Shown piece by piece: positions 11,667-21,945 of a DNA stretch of 23,522 nucleotides. The first letter of the stretch is position 1, and each line of letters starts with the position of its first letter. Under the pieces are notes generated by a model that had not been told where the DNA came from, did no database searches, and was given only the letters and a program-made list of their open reading frames with translations. The DNA is from a virus: the IMG/VR virus record IMGVR_UViG_3300035665_001424, positions 1 to 23,522 of that record, one strand, 5' to 3'. Made by a program: the position numbers and the translations under genes.

Positions 11667-12860
11667 TTAGCTTACCTTGACGAATCCGCATAACTGGATG
11701 AGGTTTCCAAACCCAGTCGTAAATTGACCGTTGTAGGGATCTATGACGTTATTGGTATCGGAGTCTGGCGATGACTTGTAATAAAGCTGCATTTCGTTTG
11801 CAGAACTCCAAAGCGCCATGCTTGGTGCATTTGATGGCCAAAGCTGTACCCATGTCACCTGAATCGGGTACTGGGTTGTTGTCACCAGCGCCGAAAAAGG
11901 GAAGCCTGTAATGTATAGCGGTATCCCGTCAAAATCAAAAGTTGCCGCCGTAGTCGTGATGTATAGGCTAAAGAAAACCGTATCGCCAATTTTTGTGTAA
12001 TAGCCGGCCCTTGACCCGTAAGTGATCGACAAGAAGTTAGGCACAGTTCTATAACCTGGCGTCCAAGTACCCTCTTCATAATCATCAAGCGTATTTGGGT
12101 CTGACGATAAAGGAGCCGATGCAGGAAACGTCAAACCATTCGCAGTCAGGAAACCTGCAGAGGTGACCGTAGCCGTTGAGTTCTTGATGAGCTTTCCGGT
12201 AACGCCGTCAAACTGAACCAAAGCATTGTTTGTTGCGCTCGTAGGCCCAATTACATCGCCTGTGCCGAGGCCAGAGGCTGAGAGAGCAATGCCGCCAGCC
12301 GTGTTGGAAATGCTTAATGGCGGACTAACCGTGATATTGGCCAGGGTAAAACCTGAGCCATTGCCGATCAGTAGCTGGCCGTTAGTTGCAGCAGCACTTA
12401 CACCTGTGCCGCCATTTCCATAAGGCAACGTGCCTGTAACGCCGTTTGTTAAGTCAATCTGCGCCCATGCCGGGTTGTTATTGGTTCCCGTGTTGGATAG
12501 ATAACGCGTGGCTGAGGTGCTCTTGGCAAGTCTTGCAAGCGTATTGGCGCCAGAGGCGTAAAGCAGATCGCCCTGCGAGGTCAAAACCGAAGAGGCAGAT
12601 GGCGCAAAGGACATCGTGCCTGAGCCATCAGTTTGAACGGCCTGGTAAGCAGAGCCATCAGCCGCCGGATAGGTTAGGCCGGCAGGGTTGTTGATGAGCT
12701 TTTTAACTGTGCCAGAAGAGTTTTTGGCATACAGCGCCATGCCTGAATCGTGATAATTGATGGCCAACTCACCTGCGTTCAGGTTTGCAGCATCAGGCGC
12801 TGTTGTTGACGCTGTATTTGTCCTATAAAGCTGGATCGGCGTGTAATTTGGTGCAGCCAT
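11667..12860 (-). CDS. tail fibre protein with N-terminal GELAINY-type module (397 aa)
   Basis: The start (PIQLYRTNTASTTAP...LNAGELAINYHDSGMALYAKN) is the common N-terminal module of phage fibres. Residues about 60-240 are low-complexity Gly/Ser/Thr/Asn repeats, including GTLPYGNGGTGVSAAATNGQ and LLIGNGSGFTLANI, typical of fibre shafts. The tip starts near residue 265 with LDDYEEGTWTPGY, then GYYTKIGDTVFFSLYI and beta-strand segments to the end, which resembles the jelly-roll end domain seen on many fibres. It begins 2 bases after the GT9-like gene. No reverse transcriptase or template repeat for targeted mutagenesis was seen nearby. A host-binding or accessory fibre is the best reading. Confidence 0.83.
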   Translation of the reverse strand: MAAPNYTPIQLYRTNTASTTAPDAANLNAGELAINYHDSGMALYAKNSSGTVKKLINNPAGLTYPAADGSAYQAVQTDGSGTMSFAPSASSVLTSQGDLLYASGANTLARLAKSTSATRYLSNTGTNNNPAWAQIDLTNGVTGTLPYGNGGTGVSAAATNGQLLIGNGSGFTLANITVSPPLSISNTAGGIALSASGLGTGDVIGPTSATNNALVQFDGVTGKLIKNSTATVTSAGFLTANGLTFPASAPLSSDPNTLDDYEEGTWTPGYRTVPNFLSITYGSRAGYYTKIGDTVFFSLYITTTAATFDFDGIPLYITGFPFSALVTTTQYPIQVTWVQLWPSNAPSMALWSSANEMQLYYKSSPDSDTNNVIDPYNGQFTTGFGNLIQLCGFVKVS

Positions 12861-12862
12861 GC

Positions 12863-13324
12863 TTACCCCAATACCGTTTCAAGAATGAGTGAATCAACGG
12901 CCTTCAAAACAACTGAAGGCTCAACAAATTTGCTTGCATCGTACTCGGTTTGCTCCCACCATAAAAACTGATTGGGAGCGAGGCAGTCACGACTTTTAAG
13001 CAAGTTAATGTTTTCCGGGTGGCCAAAGATCAGCGGATCAGAAACTGACCACAATACGATGCCAGGCTTACCCTCGTCCCAGCCTAAGTGCTGGAAAAAG
13101 GAGTCGCAAGCAATCCATGTATCACAGGCCTGCAGGAGCTTTCTAAGCTCTGCAATCGGCAAGTCTGGCCGGAAGTCTTCAACTAAGGGCTTTTCGCCGC
13201 TAATGCCGATCTGGACAATCTTGTGGCCTGCAAGCAAGCGAATGACGCCATCCCAAAACGGATAATTCTTGGGATTTTGCTTGCCATTTCTCAGTTGCTT
13301 GGCATAAGGCGCGATCAAGATCAT
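12863..13324 (-). CDS. GT9-like glycosyltransferase C-terminal domain as a separate ORF (153 aa)
   Basis: This 153-residue protein matches the second (nucleotide-sugar-binding) Rossmann domain of heptosyltransferase-like GT9 enzymes. It shows APYAK at the start, NPKNYPFWDGVIRLL (17-31), HKIVQIGISGE (34-44), then ACDTWIACDSFFQHLGW (66-82) and IVLWSVSDPLIFG (89-101). Full GT9 enzymes are about twice this length; the missing N-terminal part appears as the tail of the preceding protein. The two ORFs overlap by ATGA and lie in different frames. They may form a two-chain GT-B enzyme, or a single gene may have been broken by a small indel. Both reading frames look well kept, which favours the first. 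Confidence 0.85.
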   Translation of the reverse strand: MILIAPYAKQLRNGKQNPKNYPFWDGVIRLLAGHKIVQIGISGEKPLVEDFRPDLPIAELRKLLQACDTWIACDSFFQHLGWDEGKPGIVLWSVSDPLIFGHPENINLLKSRDCLAPNQFLWWEQTEYDASKFVEPSVVLKAVDSLILETVLG

Positions 13325-14286
13325 GTGTACAGCTTCCGGTAGGCATCTTCCAGACTTGATTTCCAGTTCCAGCGGTTCATCTTGCCGTAAATGTTGAACA
13401 TCTCGATGTCACCAAACAGGCTCTGGGCTTCAGCAATGGATTTTGACGGAATGATCTCTGGGTAGCAACCAAACACCACGGGATTCTTAATCGCTGGCAG
13501 GACGTGAGAAAAGACTAAGTGGTCACCCATGCCTCCGTTGAGCACCACAATCGTGTGATCCTTAAAGGCCATGGTATTGCGAAAGATCTGCTCGTCATGA
13601 GCAAACATCGCTTCATTGCTTTCCATGCGAATACCGCCCGATGGAGCCTTTAGGTGCCACGTCACTGCGCTGGGTACGACAAGCAGCTTGTAGCCTTTCT
13701 GCTTTAAGCCAAAGGTGAAGAGCGTCTCTTCTCTGTGGGCGACTCGAGACAGGCCTAGGTTGTAGTCGTAAATCCCAGCGCGGTAGAGAAACGTGCAGTG
13801 CAGATGGTCAACCTCTTTGACCTTCTTAATGGTCTGCCACTGCGGATTGGGTTCAGCGTAAATGTTGTCAATCTTGCCTGTAGCGTCGCCTTCAAACTTA
13901 TGTGGTGGCGTGAACACTGAGCCGCCAACACCGCCGACGTTAGGTGCTGCGTGCTTTAAGAGGTTCTGCAGGACGTTTGGCTCGGGCAGCGCGTCATCAT
14001 CAACGCGCCATACCCACTCGTAGCCCATCCAGTTAGCGATCTGATGATTGTGATGCTGACCTTTCTTGCCGGCAAAGAGCCACTCCCAGGCGATTTCCTT
14101 TTGGTCAAGAATGCGAAACAACTGGGAGAAAAGCGGATCTGACCGCAGGTCTTGGTGCTCGTCGTTATCATCAAAGATGACTAGCTTGTCAGGCTTGCGC
14201 GTCTGATTGATGATGGCTTGCAACGCCATGGGCAGCGTCGTATGCGTGCGGCCACGGGTTGAAATAGAGCACAAGACATTAGGCAT
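13321..14286 (-). CDS. GT2 glycosyltransferase fused to the N-terminal part of a GT9-like enzyme (321 aa)
   Basis: Residues 1-240 form a GT-A family 2 glycosyltransferase: VLCSISTRGRTHTTLPMAL at the start, WRVDDDALPEPN with DDD at 96-98 as the metal-binding motif, HREETLF (184-190) as the acidic catalytic region, and TWHL (209-212). From about residue 243 the sequence changes style. HTIVVLNGGMGDHLVFSHVL (244-263) matches the first strand and Gly-rich loop of GT9 ADP-heptose-type (GT-B) transferases, continuing to residue 321. The rest of a GT9 enzyme is in the next gene, which starts in an ATGA overlap. An 8-base overlap with the upstream GT2-methyltransferase gene also suggests coupled synthesis. 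Donor and acceptor sugars are unknown. Confidence 0.85.
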   Translation of the reverse strand: MPNVLCSISTRGRTHTTLPMALQAIINQTRKPDKLVIFDDNDEHQDLRSDPLFSQLFRILDQKEIAWEWLFAGKKGQHHNHQIANWMGYEWVWRVDDDALPEPNVLQNLLKHAAPNVGGVGGSVFTPPHKFEGDATGKIDNIYAEPNPQWQTIKKVKEVDHLHCTFLYRAGIYDYNLGLSRVAHREETLFTFGLKQKGYKLLVVPSAVTWHLKAPSGGIRMESNEAMFAHDEQIFRNTMAFKDHTIVVLNGGMGDHLVFSHVLPAIKNPVVFGCYPEIIPSKSIAEAQSLFGDIEMFNIYGKMNRWNWKSSLEDAYRKLYT

Positions 14287-15565
14287 GCCAACGTCCGATG
14301 AGGAGATTCAAGCGGTTGGCATGATCAATTTGCCGCGGCCATTCAGAAATATTGCCAGCCTCATCGATGTAGTTGAATTCAAAGCCAGGAAAGTGCGACT
14401 CGTTTAAGCCATGCAGCTTATGATGCGGTCCCCAAAAGCCTGGTGGCTCATTCATCGGCACAGTGAAAAGCAGGTTCTTGCAGTGCTTTTTGAGCTTTTG
14501 TAACACCTCGAGGCCATTATCGATATGCTCAATGACTTCAAAAGCGATGATGGTGTCGTAGTGCTCTAATTCGACCTTGTTGATGTCGGCGTGCATGAAC
14601 TTCGCATTCGGTGCCCAAGCCTGCTCTTTGGCCACATCCACAATAATCGGGTCGTAATCGAGTCCTGTGTATTCCACGCCGTTAGGCATGAATTGAAGGC
14701 CGTAACCGCTTGAGCAGCCGATCTCGAGAATCTTGTTGCCGACTACATGCTTGGCTGCCCATTCGTAGCGGGTGGTTTCCCTGGGAAAGACTGGATCTCC
14801 TTTGAGGAAGACTGCCCGCTCCCAGTAATTTGATAGCCGCCAACGATACCAGTCAGGGTTGTATTTCTTGGCTAGCTTGAGCGAGTTGCGCAGGAACACA
14901 TTGTGATAATCAGGAACCAGGCTCGTATCCAGTACGGTACCTTCGCCCTTGTGATAAATCGGAAAGCCGCCAACAAAGATGTCGCCCTGCCACATCTTGG
15001 GCGAGCATTCAATAACCTCAAACCCCGCCTTTTCAGCCTCAATGCAAAACTCGGTATCTTCACCGCCACCGACGCCGTATTCCGTATTGAGCAGGCCAAT
15101 CTTGTCAAAAACCTTGCGGTGGATCATCACGCAAAAGAAGATGGCAAATTCCTTGCCGGCTGGCTCTGATGGTCCCTTGATGACACAAGAGATGCCGCAC
15201 TTCTCATTGGCAAAGGCGCTATTGAGCATCTCTAGCCACTGGCTCTTGGCCTGCGGCAAGAGAACCGTATCATTATTCAGGAGCACGATCTTGTCTGATG
15301 TGGCAAAGCGTATGCCTGCGTTGGTAGCGCCCGAGTAGCCAAGGGCTTCATCGTGCCAGATGACTTTTAAGTGCTTCTCAAAGCCAATTCGTTTGAATTG
15401 CTCTTTGAGCGAGATGAGATAGTTTTTCGTGGAGTCTACACAGCCATTAGCCGAGATGACTAACTCAACGTCTGTCATGTCGGTATATTGGAAAATCGAC
15501 TCAACGCATGGCTTTAATAAGTCTTCGCAGTGGTTATACGTCGGAATGACGATGCTGTATTTCAC
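14279..15565 (-). CDS. bifunctional GT2 glycosyltransferase - class I methyltransferase (428 aa)
   Basis: Residues 1-210 are a family 2 (GT-A) glycosyltransferase. YSIVIPTYNH opens the nucleotide-sugar fold, LLNNDT (95-100) holds the metal/UDP-binding acidic residue, and GGGEDTEF (166-173) is the catalytic-base region. Residues about 265-420 are a SAM-dependent methyltransferase: ILEIGCSSGYG (279-289) is motif I, GLDYDP (301-306) the acidic loop, HADI (325-328) and FEVIEHID (342-349) the following motifs. The GTG start overlaps the upstream stop (GTGA) and is preceded by a hairpin holding its GGGAG ribosome site. The gene overlaps the next by 8 bases. It probably adds a sugar and methylates the same or a nearby glycan. 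Whether the substrate is the virion or the host surface is unknown. Confidence 0.88.
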   Translation of the reverse strand: MKYSIVIPTYNHCEDLLKPCVESIFQYTDMTDVELVISANGCVDSTKNYLISLKEQFKRIGFEKHLKVIWHDEALGYSGATNAGIRFATSDKIVLLNNDTVLLPQAKSQWLEMLNSAFANEKCGISCVIKGPSEPAGKEFAIFFCVMIHRKVFDKIGLLNTEYGVGGGEDTEFCIEAEKAGFEVIECSPKMWQGDIFVGGFPIYHKGEGTVLDTSLVPDYHNVFLRNSLKLAKKYNPDWYRWRLSNYWERAVFLKGDPVFPRETTRYEWAAKHVVGNKILEIGCSSGYGLQFMPNGVEYTGLDYDPIIVDVAKEQAWAPNAKFMHADINKVELEHYDTIIAFEVIEHIDNGLEVLQKLKKHCKNLLFTVPMNEPPGFWGPHHKLHGLNESHFPGFEFNYIDEAGNISEWPRQIDHANRLNLLIGRWHA

Positions 15566-15861: not shown

Positions 15862-17889
15862 TTACTGCACAGGAAATGGCGCTGTTGGAGGCGTGAAGTT
15901 GGCTGTGTAGCGGGCATAACCTCTAGTAATGCGCATGTCGTCAATGTATCCATTAAACGTATGGCCGGCTGATCCACCAAAATAAGACACAGCCGACCCA
16001 GACGTATTAGTAGATTCAGTAGCAGACCCGTCAAGGACTCCGTTAACAAATAGCCTTACTGTGCTACCCGATCTGCTAAATGCCAAGTGATACCAAGTTG
16101 CCGAAGCCAAAGCCGTAGTACCAGTAATAATGAATCCTATATTATGTTTAACGATACAAGCTTTATAGGAATTATTCCTATCAACAACCATATACAAATA
16201 ATTAGTAATATCTTTGTAAAAACAAACATCAAATTGTCCAGCAGCACCATTACCAGACCTGTAGTACCACATTTCGTGGGTAAAGTCCCCAATTTGATCT
16301 AATAACGGAGAGTTTGGAGCAACTAAATAATCACCCGTCCCATCAAAGTACATCGACCCACCACCAAACTTACTGACGCTTGTGCTGATCTGAGCATTCC
16401 CAACAGTCTCCAGCACATTCTTGGCAGTGGCATCCGTGATACCGGCGTTGGTGAAGTTGAGGAGGAGGGATGTGTTGGGTACTGCCGTTAGTGGTGCTGT
16501 GGGACCGCCAGCGGGAGGAACAATGGCAGTGCCTTTGACTACACGAACATTTGAAATGTATCCGGCAGGGAATAGGTACGTCGCATTCCCATCTGAGCTA
16601 TATGCTCCAACCACAAAAGCGCTTGTGTTATTAGGAACTGTGCCAGATGAATTGCCTGTTCCGCCAGAAACGCCGTTTACATAAATAGTCCATGTACTCC
16701 CGCTTCTCGTAAACGCCAAGTGAGTCCATGCGTTTAGTGTGGCTGCGATAGAACTTGAAAAGGCAATTCCCCAGCTTGAACCGCTCAATGTTGCATAGAA
16801 ATTAGGCGTAAGCCCACTAAAATATATTAAAACTCCACCGAACGTACCTACGTCAGTTCGTTTGGCAAAAATTCCGTCGGATGAGCTTGGTGTTTCGTTA
16901 AGATAAACCCAGCACTCCATTGTAAAGTCAGACGCTTCCATGTCTAACGCTGTGTTATCAGCCACACTCAAATAATCCCCCGTCCCATCAAAGTACCCGC
17001 TACCACCCACTGCGGCAGCACTGTAGGAGGACGTTGGTGCGAAGGGGGAGAAGGGGGTGACTGAGGGTGAGCCTGTTACCGTAATCGTCTTAGCAGTTGT
17101 CTGCGTATTCGTATCAACAAAACGATTGCTTTGGCACGTTAAAAGAACCGTATTGGTGATCGCAGTAAGTGGTGACGTTGGTGGAGTGAATGCGCCCGTA
17201 TAAACAGGAGAGCCTTTTACAAGGCGCACGTTGGATATATATGTATTTGAAACACCAACGAAAGAACCGTTGTATGTCTGGCCGATACACAGACCATTAG
17301 CGGCAATTCCCGTAAAACTCGTTGTGATCTGTGCGCTGCCTTTGCTTACCCCGTCAACGTAAATGACGGTGTTACCAGCTCCGGTTCCGCTTCTTACCAA
17401 AGCAACGTGATGCCACGTATTAAGAGCTATTGAACCCGATGAGGTTGTTAATGCTGCTGTACCATTTGTATACAGGCTTAAGGTTGTAGTTGAACCAGGA
17501 ATGTAAAAAATAAAGCCGTTCTGACCAGCGTTTTCATTTCCGATACAGACCAACTGGCCTGACGATGAATTTGCAGTAACGTACACCCACATCTCTAAGC
17601 AAAAATCACCTGTCAAATCAAGGTCGGTGCTATCCGGTATGGTCAATCGGTAATTAGCTGATCCATCAAAGCGGTTTGACCACCCCGTCTGTGAGAACGG
17701 GCTAAAGGTTCCCTGCGTAGTGTCACCGTTGCGGGTGATGGTGAAGTTGTTAGTGGACGAGTCTAAGAACGTGTTGTTCTGTGCGCCGTTGGTGCCGTTG
17801 CCGGGGAGCAGCAGGGAGACAAGGTTGAAGTAGGTGTCTTTGACTGCGCCAGATACACCCGCAATCAGGGCGTTGAGAATGCCGGTCAT
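15862..17889 (-). CDS. three-domain LamG/concanavalin-like lectin fibre protein (675 aa)
   Basis: After an N-terminal segment of about 25 residues (MTGILNALIAGVSGAVKDTY) come three successive LamG-like (ConA-type) repeats at about residues 22-245, 246-475 and 476-675. Each shows the same signposts: FDGS/FDGTGDYL, D/GDF followed by EMW or ECWVY, W-H-A-RSG, YVNGV or YVDG, YISNVRLVKG or YIDDMRITRG, and FTPPTSPL or FTPPTAPF. Such domains bind carbohydrates, so this is a good candidate for the receptor-binding or surface-glycan-binding fibre. It starts 1 base after the previous stop, with no strong ribosome site. In domain 3 the DNA at 16141-16200 has only 15 G+C of 60, unlike its surroundings, which suggests domain exchange. 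Confidence 0.85.
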   Translation of the reverse strand: MTGILNALIAGVSGAVKDTYFNLVSLLLPGNGTNGAQNNTFLDSSTNNFTITRNGDTTQGTFSPFSQTGWSNRFDGSANYRLTIPDSTDLDLTGDFCLEMWVYVTANSSSGQLVCIGNENAGQNGFIFYIPGSTTTLSLYTNGTAALTTSSGSIALNTWHHVALVRSGTGAGNTVIYVDGVSKGSAQITTSFTGIAANGLCIGQTYNGSFVGVSNTYISNVRLVKGSPVYTGAFTPPTSPLTAITNTVLLTCQSNRFVDTNTQTTAKTITVTGSPSVTPFSPFAPTSSYSAAAVGGSGYFDGTGDYLSVADNTALDMEASDFTMECWVYLNETPSSSDGIFAKRTDVGTFGGVLIYFSGLTPNFYATLSGSSWGIAFSSSIAATLNAWTHLAFTRSGSTWTIYVNGVSGGTGNSSGTVPNNTSAFVVGAYSSDGNATYLFPAGYISNVRVVKGTAIVPPAGGPTAPLTAVPNTSLLLNFTNAGITDATAKNVLETVGNAQISTSVSKFGGGSMYFDGTGDYLVAPNSPLLDQIGDFTHEMWYYRSGNGAAGQFDVCFYKDITNYLYMVVDRNNSYKACIVKHNIGFIITGTTALASATWYHLAFSRSGSTVRLFVNGVLDGSATESTNTSGSAVSYFGGSAGHTFNGYIDDMRITRGYARYTANFTPPTAPFPVQ

Positions 17890-19938: not shown

Positions 19939-20279
19939 TATGGTGTTATCGCTATTCCATCGAGGTTGCCATCATTTTCGATGAGATTGGTATTGCCCTC
20001 AGTTGAGAGAATTATACTTTGCTGATCATTTAACACTAGGTTATTTTGCTCTGCAGCCACCGATACATCAGGCCGCGGGAAACGCAAATTGATCCGCTCA
20101 GTCTTTCTTGCTGGCAGTCGATAAGGGTCCTTTTGATCTCGACAATTCTCTTCGCATACCATCAGGCCAGGGAAGTTAATGTCTGGGCCAAGGGTTGCAT
20201 GCGGGCGCTTCATACGGCAGCGATCGCAAATGCCAATTGCGATGTCTGAGTAGCCCTCGGTGTCAAGAAAGAGTGGCAT
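19938..20279 (-). CDS. small zinc-ribbon-like virion protein (113 aa)
   Basis: The N-terminal half holds a four-Cys pattern: CDRC at residues 18-21 and CEENC at 42-46, separated by a short strand-turn segment. This fits a zinc ribbon. It is followed by KDPYRLPARKTERI and RFPRPD, a conserved-looking Arg/Pro stretch. Short proteins with this ICDRC...VC..C...DPyrLP layout are common among structural genes of uncultured aquatic phages, usually without a known role. The C-terminal 40 residues are Asn/Gln/Glu-rich and probably flexible. It starts in a TAATG overlap with the HNH gene and ends in a TAATG overlap with the collagen-like fibre gene. Zinc binding is inferred from spacing only. Confidence 0.75.
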   Translation of the reverse strand: MPLFLDTEGYSDIAIGICDRCRMKRPHATLGPDINFPGLMVCEENCRDQKDPYRLPARKTERINLRFPRPDVSVAAEQNNLVLNDQQSIILSTEGNTNLIENDGNLDGIAITP

Positions 20280-20872
20280 TACGATGTTCTGCCCTGAGCG
20301 GCAAGAGTGGCGCGGCGGGAAGCAACGCGCTTTGCAATTTGCTCTGGCGTCTGCTTGCGGCCTTTATTAGCCCTCCCGCCAGAAGCACAAGCCTCAACTG
20401 ATGGGGGCTTAGAATTTTTAGCATACGGGCGAGGAACACCTTTGGTTTTTGCAGACTTTTTAGCTTGCGCCTCAGCGCTCCAAGCCAAGTGCCGATGTGC
20501 ATGCAATGCTTCCAAAGACTTGCCCGTAGCTTTTTTACCAGTCAACGCCTTGCGCATTTTTTCTACCGCCTCAGGCGACTTTTTCTTACCTTTTGCGGCT
20601 AAAGACATTTTAGATTTTGTTTCTTCAGACTTAGGCTTTCGCATATAAGGCTTGGGAATGCCTTTGCGGTTTGGAATCAAGTCTTCTTTTAAGCCGTTAG
20701 CCAATCGATTATATGCCCAGCCATCAGCCGGATTGCCGTAAATTTTGAACCTAACCAGATGAGCTATCGCATGATCAATTGGATGCAAAAGGACTAAGTT
20801 ATCTGGCGCATCTGATCCGCCCTTATAACGAGGAATAATGTGATGCTTGTGAAATCCGGCTAGCAAAGTCAT
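20279..20872 (-). CDS. free-standing HNH endonuclease with NUMOD3-like repeats (197 aa)
   Basis: Near the N-terminus is a clear HNH core: HKHHIIPRYKGGSDAPDNLV followed by LLHPIDHAIAHL, giving the HH, GG-N and final H of the metal-binding nuclease fold. The rest is very basic, with repeated segments of the type KPKSEETKSKMSLAAKGKK, SPEAVEKMRKALTGKK and QTPEQIAKRVASRRA. These are NUMOD3-like DNA-binding modules of homing endonucleases. I chose the ATG at 20872, 2 bases after the connector stop; a TTG at 20878 would add two residues. The stop overlaps the next gene as TAATG. It interrupts no gene and carries no intron, so it is a free-standing, probably mobile endonuclease. Its middle is AT-richer than its neighbours (20 G+C of 60 at 20581-20640). 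Confidence 0.88.
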   Translation of the reverse strand: MTLLAGFHKHHIIPRYKGGSDAPDNLVLLHPIDHAIAHLVRFKIYGNPADGWAYNRLANGLKEDLIPNRKGIPKPYMRKPKSEETKSKMSLAAKGKKKSPEAVEKMRKALTGKKATGKSLEALHAHRHLAWSAEAQAKKSAKTKGVPRPYAKNSKPPSVEACASGGRANKGRKQTPEQIAKRVASRRATLAAQGRTS

Positions 20873-20874
20873 CT

Positions 20875-21945
20875 TCAACTCGTATATGGATTGATGTTGA
20901 CCGCAAAGTAGATCGGACTCTTATCACGCTCTTCTGCTTCTGCAAGCGCCAAGTATTTGCCAGCCTGGTCCTCAAGGTATCTGACGCGATCAAGGGGTAC
21001 TTGAGGTAATTCCATGCTTAATTGATGCGCTAGCATGCCGACAACGGCCATATACCAGCGCTGCGGGATCTGTAGTTCATCAGATAAGTCGCCTACATCC
21101 ATGATCTGCTTGGAATACCAGACAGTCATCTGGACGTACCACTCGTTTGGCACCGGCCAAAGGTAGATTTCTGGCTGTGGGACGGTCCGATTGAACCAAA
21201 ACTGGTAGGGCTGGTTAGCTGTGAAGTTTTTATTGGGCAGATTGGTGTAATCGTCACGATTTAGCCGCGCCATTTGGATTTCACGCGACATATTGCCCAC
21301 ATAAAACTCACGCAAAGCCAGTGTCGTGCCTGCAGAGGCTCTAACCCGGTAATACTGCACGCTCTGGCCTGGGTCGATGTCATACCAGAGCCACTGCTTA
21401 TCGGTTACGACAACCTCTCCGAGGTCTTCAAGGGTATTCCAAGTGGTGTTATCAGTGGAATACTCAAGGGTAAGCGTCCAGGTGGCACTTCCACCACCAG
21501 AAACATAGGGGAGAAGGCCGATCGACCCAGCATAAATTGGGTTACTGGTGCCAAAATTGATCGATATATTGCCATTCGTACTTGTCTGCAAGCAGTAAGT
21601 ATCGACATCGCTATCCCCTGCGTAGGCTGCATTGCCACCAGCGCTAGAAGAGTAGCTTCCAGTAGGGCGCTGCATGGTGCGGTAAAGCACATTTAAGGCG
21701 TCGTTAGCGCCAACAGGCAAGGTGTAAATGTATTTGTTGGGCGTAAGGCCAATGACTTCCTTCTTAATCGCCCAATACTGGATGCCAATATTGATTAGAT
21801 TGGTCAGAACGAAGCCTAACGACTCTCTGGCCGTTAGCAATTGCTCGCTAGTCAGTTCTTCAGCAAGCTTGCCACAGCGACGTGCAGCGTGGTCTATGAC
21901 CGTCTGTACTGAATAAATCTGACCGTATGTATCTGAATAGGCCAT
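20875..21945 (-). CDS. head-tail connector/adaptor protein with inserted discoidin-like domain (356 aa)
   Basis: Residues about 10-95 are helical and then beta (TSEQLLTARESLGFVLTNL, then VIGLTPNKYIYTLP), and residues 219-345 (REIQMARLNRDDYTNLP, FWFNRTVPQPEIYLWPVP, long C-terminal helices) match the pattern of gp4/gp11-type adaptors that bind below the portal and receive the tail. Residues about 97-218 look inserted. They read as an F5/8 type C (discoidin-like) beta-sandwich: INFG, TLEYSTDNTTWNTL, WLWYDI and YYRVRASAG are typical. Such a domain would project outward and may bind glycans or other tail parts. The ATG abuts the stop of the basic protein gene. A second, shorter adaptor-like protein is at 8782-9417. 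The discoidin call is by motif only. Confidence 0.8.
   Translation of the reverse strand: MAYSDTYGQIYSVQTVIDHAARRCGKLAEELTSEQLLTARESLGFVLTNLINIGIQYWAIKKEVIGLTPNKYIYTLPVGANDALNVLYRTMQRPTGSYSSSAGGNAAYAGDSDVDTYCLQTSTNGNISINFGTSNPIYAGSIGLLPYVSGGGSATWTLTLEYSTDNTTWNTLEDLGEVVVTDKQWLWYDIDPGQSVQYYRVRASAGTTLALREFYVGNMSREIQMARLNRDDYTNLPNKNFTANQPYQFWFNRTVPQPEIYLWPVPNEWYVQMTVWYSKQIMDVGDLSDELQIPQRWYMAVVGMLAHQLSMELPQVPLDRVRYLEDQAGKYLALAEAEERDKSPIYFAVNINPYTS

Follow-up and report, generated by a model that had tools for sequence, protein, structure and literature searches.

Enzymes of the GT9 family carry the two lobes of a GT-B fold on one chain of ~320–400 amino acids, and WaaC, WaaF and TibC are single chains of this kind. 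The activity of heptosyltransferase I is lowered 4688-fold by the D13A substitution, 2027-fold by D261A and 926-fold by K192A (PMC5713226). The N-lobe of TibC, which has four strands and 98 residues, uses D110 as its base and packs on another domain (PMC4358343), so N-lobes of this superfamily can be reduced in size. GT-B enzymes that are naturally split have also been described, i.e., the MurG-type pairs Alg13/Alg14 and EpsE/EpsF, which are broken at the lobe boundary (PMC4973528). Alg14, itself a membrane anchor, is a homologue of the N-terminal region of MurG and lacks an attached second glycosyltransferase. In phages, GT9-like proteins of ~290–315 amino acids occur as uninterrupted chains, e.g., gp53 of Pelagibacter phage HTVC111P, which adjoins a tail fibre gene. 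The genes gp25/gp26 of the cultured Methylophilaceae phage P19250A are annotated as hypothetical.

The stretch of DNA analysed here, referred to as the window, is the 23.5-kb virus record IMGVR_UViG_3300035665_001424 of IMG/VR. Two minus-strand genes are of concern. Gene A (13321..14286) encodes a protein of 321 amino acids, chain A, in which a GT2 glycosyltransferase of GT-A fold is followed by a C-terminal region of ~80 residues resembling a miniature GT9 N-lobe; gene C (12863..13324) encodes chain C, a separate GT9 C-lobe of 153 amino acids. The first-pass annotation had described both reading frames and their ATGA overlap, and all were found where it had placed them, with the 4-base stop-start overlap at 13321..13324 on the minus strand. 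The two lobes of a GT9 enzyme are not found on one chain at this locus. We consider it probable (roughly 60%) that a single GT9-like GT-B enzyme is encoded in two pieces by this gene pair, with a GT2 domain joined to one of the pieces; the pairing of the chains is something that we infer. The splitting of GT-B enzymes is itself already known, but a split GT9 enzyme with its N-lobe on a GT2 enzyme appears to be new, and an incomplete literature search found neither a split GT9 nor an N-lobe grafted on GT2. If the reading is true, this would be the first GT9 enzyme known to be split, and its GT-B N-lobe would be unusually small. It would add the heptosyltransferase family to the naturally split GT-B enzymes represented by Alg13/Alg14 and EpsE/EpsF, suggest how small an N-lobe can become with support from another domain, and make it possible to test clearly how two chains assemble into a GT-B active site.

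The separate C-lobe and the two parts of chain A

Chain C is the donor-binding C-lobe of a GT9 enzyme. Its match to the Pfam GT9 profile (PF01075) spans only profile positions 170–218 of 247, with an E-value of 0.005, which falls short of the curated cut-off, but 28/28 representatives of the chain C family match this profile, the best with an E-value of 2e-8. The complete C-lobe was aligned when a chain C profile was compared with 41 cellular single-chain GT9 proteins (E 3.6e-12), and Met1 of chain C coincides with the start of the first C-lobe strand, at alignment position 180. An AlphaFold2 model of chain C (pLDDT 90) matches the folds of TibC, WaaF, WaaC and the Veillonella GT9 protein 3tov with probability near 1. 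These profile and fold matches bear out the first-pass description of the second reading frame as a GT9 C-domain only, and the position of Met1 agrees with the break that it had located near the linker between the GT-B lobes. Assignment of chain C to GT28, the MurG-type family, was rejected since both sequence and fold match GT9. Its C-lobe is homologous to that of HTVC111P gp53 and similar phage proteins (global profile E 1.6e-10), and the small chain has no PHROG match.

Residues associated with the donor site are also present in chain C. In an alignment with WaaC, a weak match (E 0.4) from which the WaaC residue numbers were counted off, K19, D74 and H79 correspond to K192, D261 and H266, respectively. 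The minus-strand codons of Lys19 (13268..13270) and Asp74 (13103..13105) thereby specify the equivalents, by alignment, of heptosyltransferase I K192 and D261. K19, E44, D74 and H79 are invariant in 152/152 pairs.

Chain A begins with a GT2 catalytic domain (residues about 1–240; 13567..14286, minus strand), which matches Pfam GT2 with E-values of 7e-6 and 1.2e-5. The best structural matches of the chain A model (pLDDT 91, pTM 0.88) are GT-A enzymes, and the DDD (residues 96–98) and REE (185–187) sequences are invariant in all pairs covering the site. Chain A thus exhibits the GT-A fold, the acidic metal-binding motif and the catalytic acidic residues of a GT2 enzyme.

The tail of chain A (residues 242–321; 13324..13563, minus strand) contains HTIVVLNGGMGDHLVFSHVL, followed by about 60 further residues. 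In the model it forms a strand, a GMGDH loop, a helix, a second strand and helices, with two strands only. G252, G254, D255 and H256 are invariant in 148/148 pairs, and GMGDH occupies the same place as the GT9 loop that contains the catalytic base, D13 in heptosyltransferase I. The Asp255 codon (13522..13524, minus strand) would accordingly specify the D13 equivalent. The tail sequence has no credible or significant match in Pfam or the PDB. Compared with the N-terminus of the HTVC111P-type phage single-chain GT9 proteins, which contain a GGxG strand-loop-helix, it gave a local match that was equalled by 1/200 column shuffles; in the comparison with cellular GT9 N-domains, 58/200 shuffles were as good, though the register was correct. 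With the residues of both chains added together, the GD and D[ST]xxxH motifs lie ~140 residues apart, whereas the median spacing in single-chain GT9 proteins is 243. The homology of the tail to GT9 N-domains is moderately supported by sequence and depends mainly on one strand-loop-helix motif, and we infer that the tail is a miniature GT-B N-lobe of ~80 residues, roughly half as large as is usual. The first-pass annotation had assigned the N-terminal half of a GT9 enzyme to chain A. Its Gly-rich motif is indeed there, but a full-length GT9 N-domain was rejected, as only ~80 residues are available and the lobe is a miniature, not an N-domain of normal size.

The single-chain GT9-like proteins of phages differ from the pair described here in being uninterrupted, lacking a GT2 fusion and, in those examined, having Lys or Arg at the position of Asp255, so an Asp255 base is not universal among these cousins. 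A 145-kb phage contig that carries the split pair also encodes a single-chain GT9-like protein of 313 amino acids with an SGGAGR motif (L397:340-1281).

Conservation and nature of the junction

Relatives of chains A and C were collected from viral contigs and one cultured phage, using the best 80 per scan. Among the 146 non-redundant C genes obtained within this limit, 138 overlap gene A by 4 bp, which answers the question, raised at first pass, of whether related phages carry the same split at the same place. Two others have short overlaps of 10 and 26 bp, and in four a methyltransferase-like gene of roughly 480–490 bases lies between the halves; the sequence of this extra gene was inspected in two of the four loci. 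Of the remaining two, one lies at the edge of its contig and the other is the HTVC111P single-chain protein, a distant homologue. None of the 146 is a GT2-GT9 fusion, and no locus with room for both genes has A or C alone, again among the best 80 per scan; fused forms may exist among relatives farther away than these. Where the halves are parted (L184, L194, L353 and L363), the gene between GT2-GT9N and GT9C encodes ~160 amino acids, and in L184 and L194 it appears to be a SAM methyltransferase.

The junction is the same across ~58–100% identity, and dN/dS is about 0.10–0.11 in chain C and in both parts of chain A, GT2 and tail, as under purifying selection. In phage P19250A, the one cultured relative, gp25/gp26 carry the same split with the same 4-base overlap and are 61% and 59% identical to the pair in the window. 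They are a member of the same family with no essential difference, and a likely function can now be suggested for them. A search of a genome collection gave only three hits, located on contigs that had been binned as MAGs of unrelated taxa and that are probably phage contigs. If the tail is an N-lobe, the two genes represent the pattern of known split GT-B enzymes, i.e., separate conserved genes with the break at the lobe boundary. The split is an old, preserved arrangement, by which many freshwater phages appear to make one sugar-adding enzyme from two proteins. Mirror-tree correlations of pairwise distances were 0.64 for GT2 and C, 0.35 for the tail and C, 0.33 for the tail and the upstream gene, and 0.17 for C and the upstream gene; these values show that A and C are inherited together, while a contact between the tail and C is not singled out.

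These observations bear on how the overlapping frames arose and are expressed. The first-pass annotation had offered a simple indel in a once-fused gene as its alternative, and frame disruption by a recent indel or a sequencing error would by itself fit overlapping frames. The uninterrupted GT2-GT9 gene that it had named as evidence against a two-chain enzyme is found in 0/146 relatives (best 80 per scan), however, and the junction is shared by divergent relatives and a cultured phage. Since the split is kept in all relatives sampled and dN/dS is about 0.1, and with a whole gene inserted between the halves in four loci, we regard an indel as excluded for practical purposes. Programmed −1 frameshifting, which would yield a fused GT2-GT9 protein beside the short form, is compatible with the overlap and with the A-rich slippery runs seen at a few junctions. 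It is nevertheless very improbable, because an in-phase slippery heptamer occurs at only 5/107 distinct junctions, the median length over which the C frame stays open upstream of its start is only 7 codons, and the inserted genes part the halves completely. Translational coupling at ATGA offers the simpler reading of the junction sequences. In the window, a Shine-Dalgarno-like GGAAG (13333..13337, minus strand) lies inside the end of gene A, 8 nt before the ATG of chain C, and, as a raw count, a core of this kind is present at 64/107 distinct junctions.

A proposed active site between two chains

In the proposed enzyme, the nucleotide-sugar donor would be bound by chain C, a Rossmann-like C-lobe, and the C-terminal ~80 residues of chain A would form the miniature N-lobe, contributing Asp255 as the catalytic base as well as the acceptor side. 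The GT-B active site would then be the cleft between the two chains once they are joined. This arrangement is suggested by the identity of the C-lobe, the position of the tail motif and the invariant residues on both chains; the equivalents of the heptosyltransferase I catalytic residues are divided, with D255 (proposed for D13) on chain A and K19 (K192) and D74 (D261) on chain C. Because the GT2 domain has intact DDD and REE residues of its own, the complex is predicted to contain two transfer sites. A first sugar would probably be added by the GT2 domain and the following one by the composite GT9 site, resulting in a short glycan made within one complex, while translational coupling at ATGA would keep the chains in proportion. 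The first-pass annotation had inferred a two-step sugar-adding complex, and its interpretation is partly supported. A more specific version is advanced tentatively, at somewhat less than even odds. In it, two sugars would be added in sequence to the tail fibre, and the GT-B (GT9) site would be formed by a stand-alone C-lobe together with a miniature N-lobe that is grafted onto a GT2 enzyme.

Known enzymes resemble this arrangement in different respects. Chain C matches the C-lobe of WaaC, WaaF and TibC by profile and by fold and has the K192 and D261 equivalents, whereas those enzymes are single chains and here two chains are involved, with the ~80-residue N-lobe fused to GT2. The reduced N-lobe of TibC, packed on another domain, is only a partial precedent for the tail; by analogy, the shortened lobe may be propped by the GT2 domain. 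Alg13/Alg14 and EpsE/EpsF share the division of one GT-B enzyme into separate N- and C-lobe polypeptides but belong to another glycosyltransferase family, MurG-type rather than GT9.

The tail might instead be a docking module outside any GT-B site, with chain C, a former GT9 lobe, serving the GT2 enzyme as a subunit for donor binding or regulation. The weak homology of the tail to GT9 N-domains and its size, about half of the usual, favor such a role, and the two-strand tail, as modeled, is smaller than the N-lobes with which it was compared, which counts against a composite enzyme. We find the docking role doubtful, since the GMGD motif is in GT9 register and both sides have invariant residues of catalytic type (K19, E44, D74 and H79; D255 and H256), and this is more than a docking module or sugar binder would need. 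It is less likely still that the chains are independent, adjacent enzymes of one pathway, with C working alone or with another partner. The other gene found between the halves in four distinct loci would suit independent enzymes. Among the relatives sampled, one half is never seen without the other where the locus has room for both, however, the halves stay in one gene run even when a gene is inserted, and a lone C-lobe would lack the acceptor side of the cleft.

Neighboring genes and a possible glycan acceptor

On the upstream side, gene A overlaps by 8 bases a gene on the same strand (14279..15565, minus strand) encoding a GT2 plus SAM methyltransferase protein of 428 amino acids, which may attach another sugar and cap it. 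PF00535 and PF13489 are each found in upstream genes of 27/34 distinct loci. This GT2-methyltransferase gene is a conserved neighbor in most loci; elsewhere its place is taken by larger or different genes, some of them encoding an FkbM-type methyltransferase. On the downstream side lies a tail-fibre-like gene (11667..12860, minus strand; tail fibre match E 6e-6), whose product is a plausible glycan acceptor, and downstream genes of related loci often belong to tail-fibre or collagen-like families. Tail, fibre and virion structural genes of the window are on the same strand as the pair. Together, the genes point to a glycan-building cassette next to tail-fibre genes in freshwater phages, and its likeliest role would be to build a short, possibly methyl-capped glycan on the phage's own tail fibre; host surface sugars are an alternative target of modification.

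Further features of the region were also observed. The tail-fibre-like proteins of the window (11667–12860) and of related loci begin with a conserved sequence, GYTPIxLYxSxT...NLxxGELAxN, which may mark the part that attaches to the virion. A 675-amino acid protein encoded at 15862–17889 contains three concanavalin-type lectin (Laminin_G_3) domains and is likely to function in receptor binding or virion decoration. A homing-endonuclease-like gene (20279–20878; PHROG 655, E 1e-18) is situated in the structural module.
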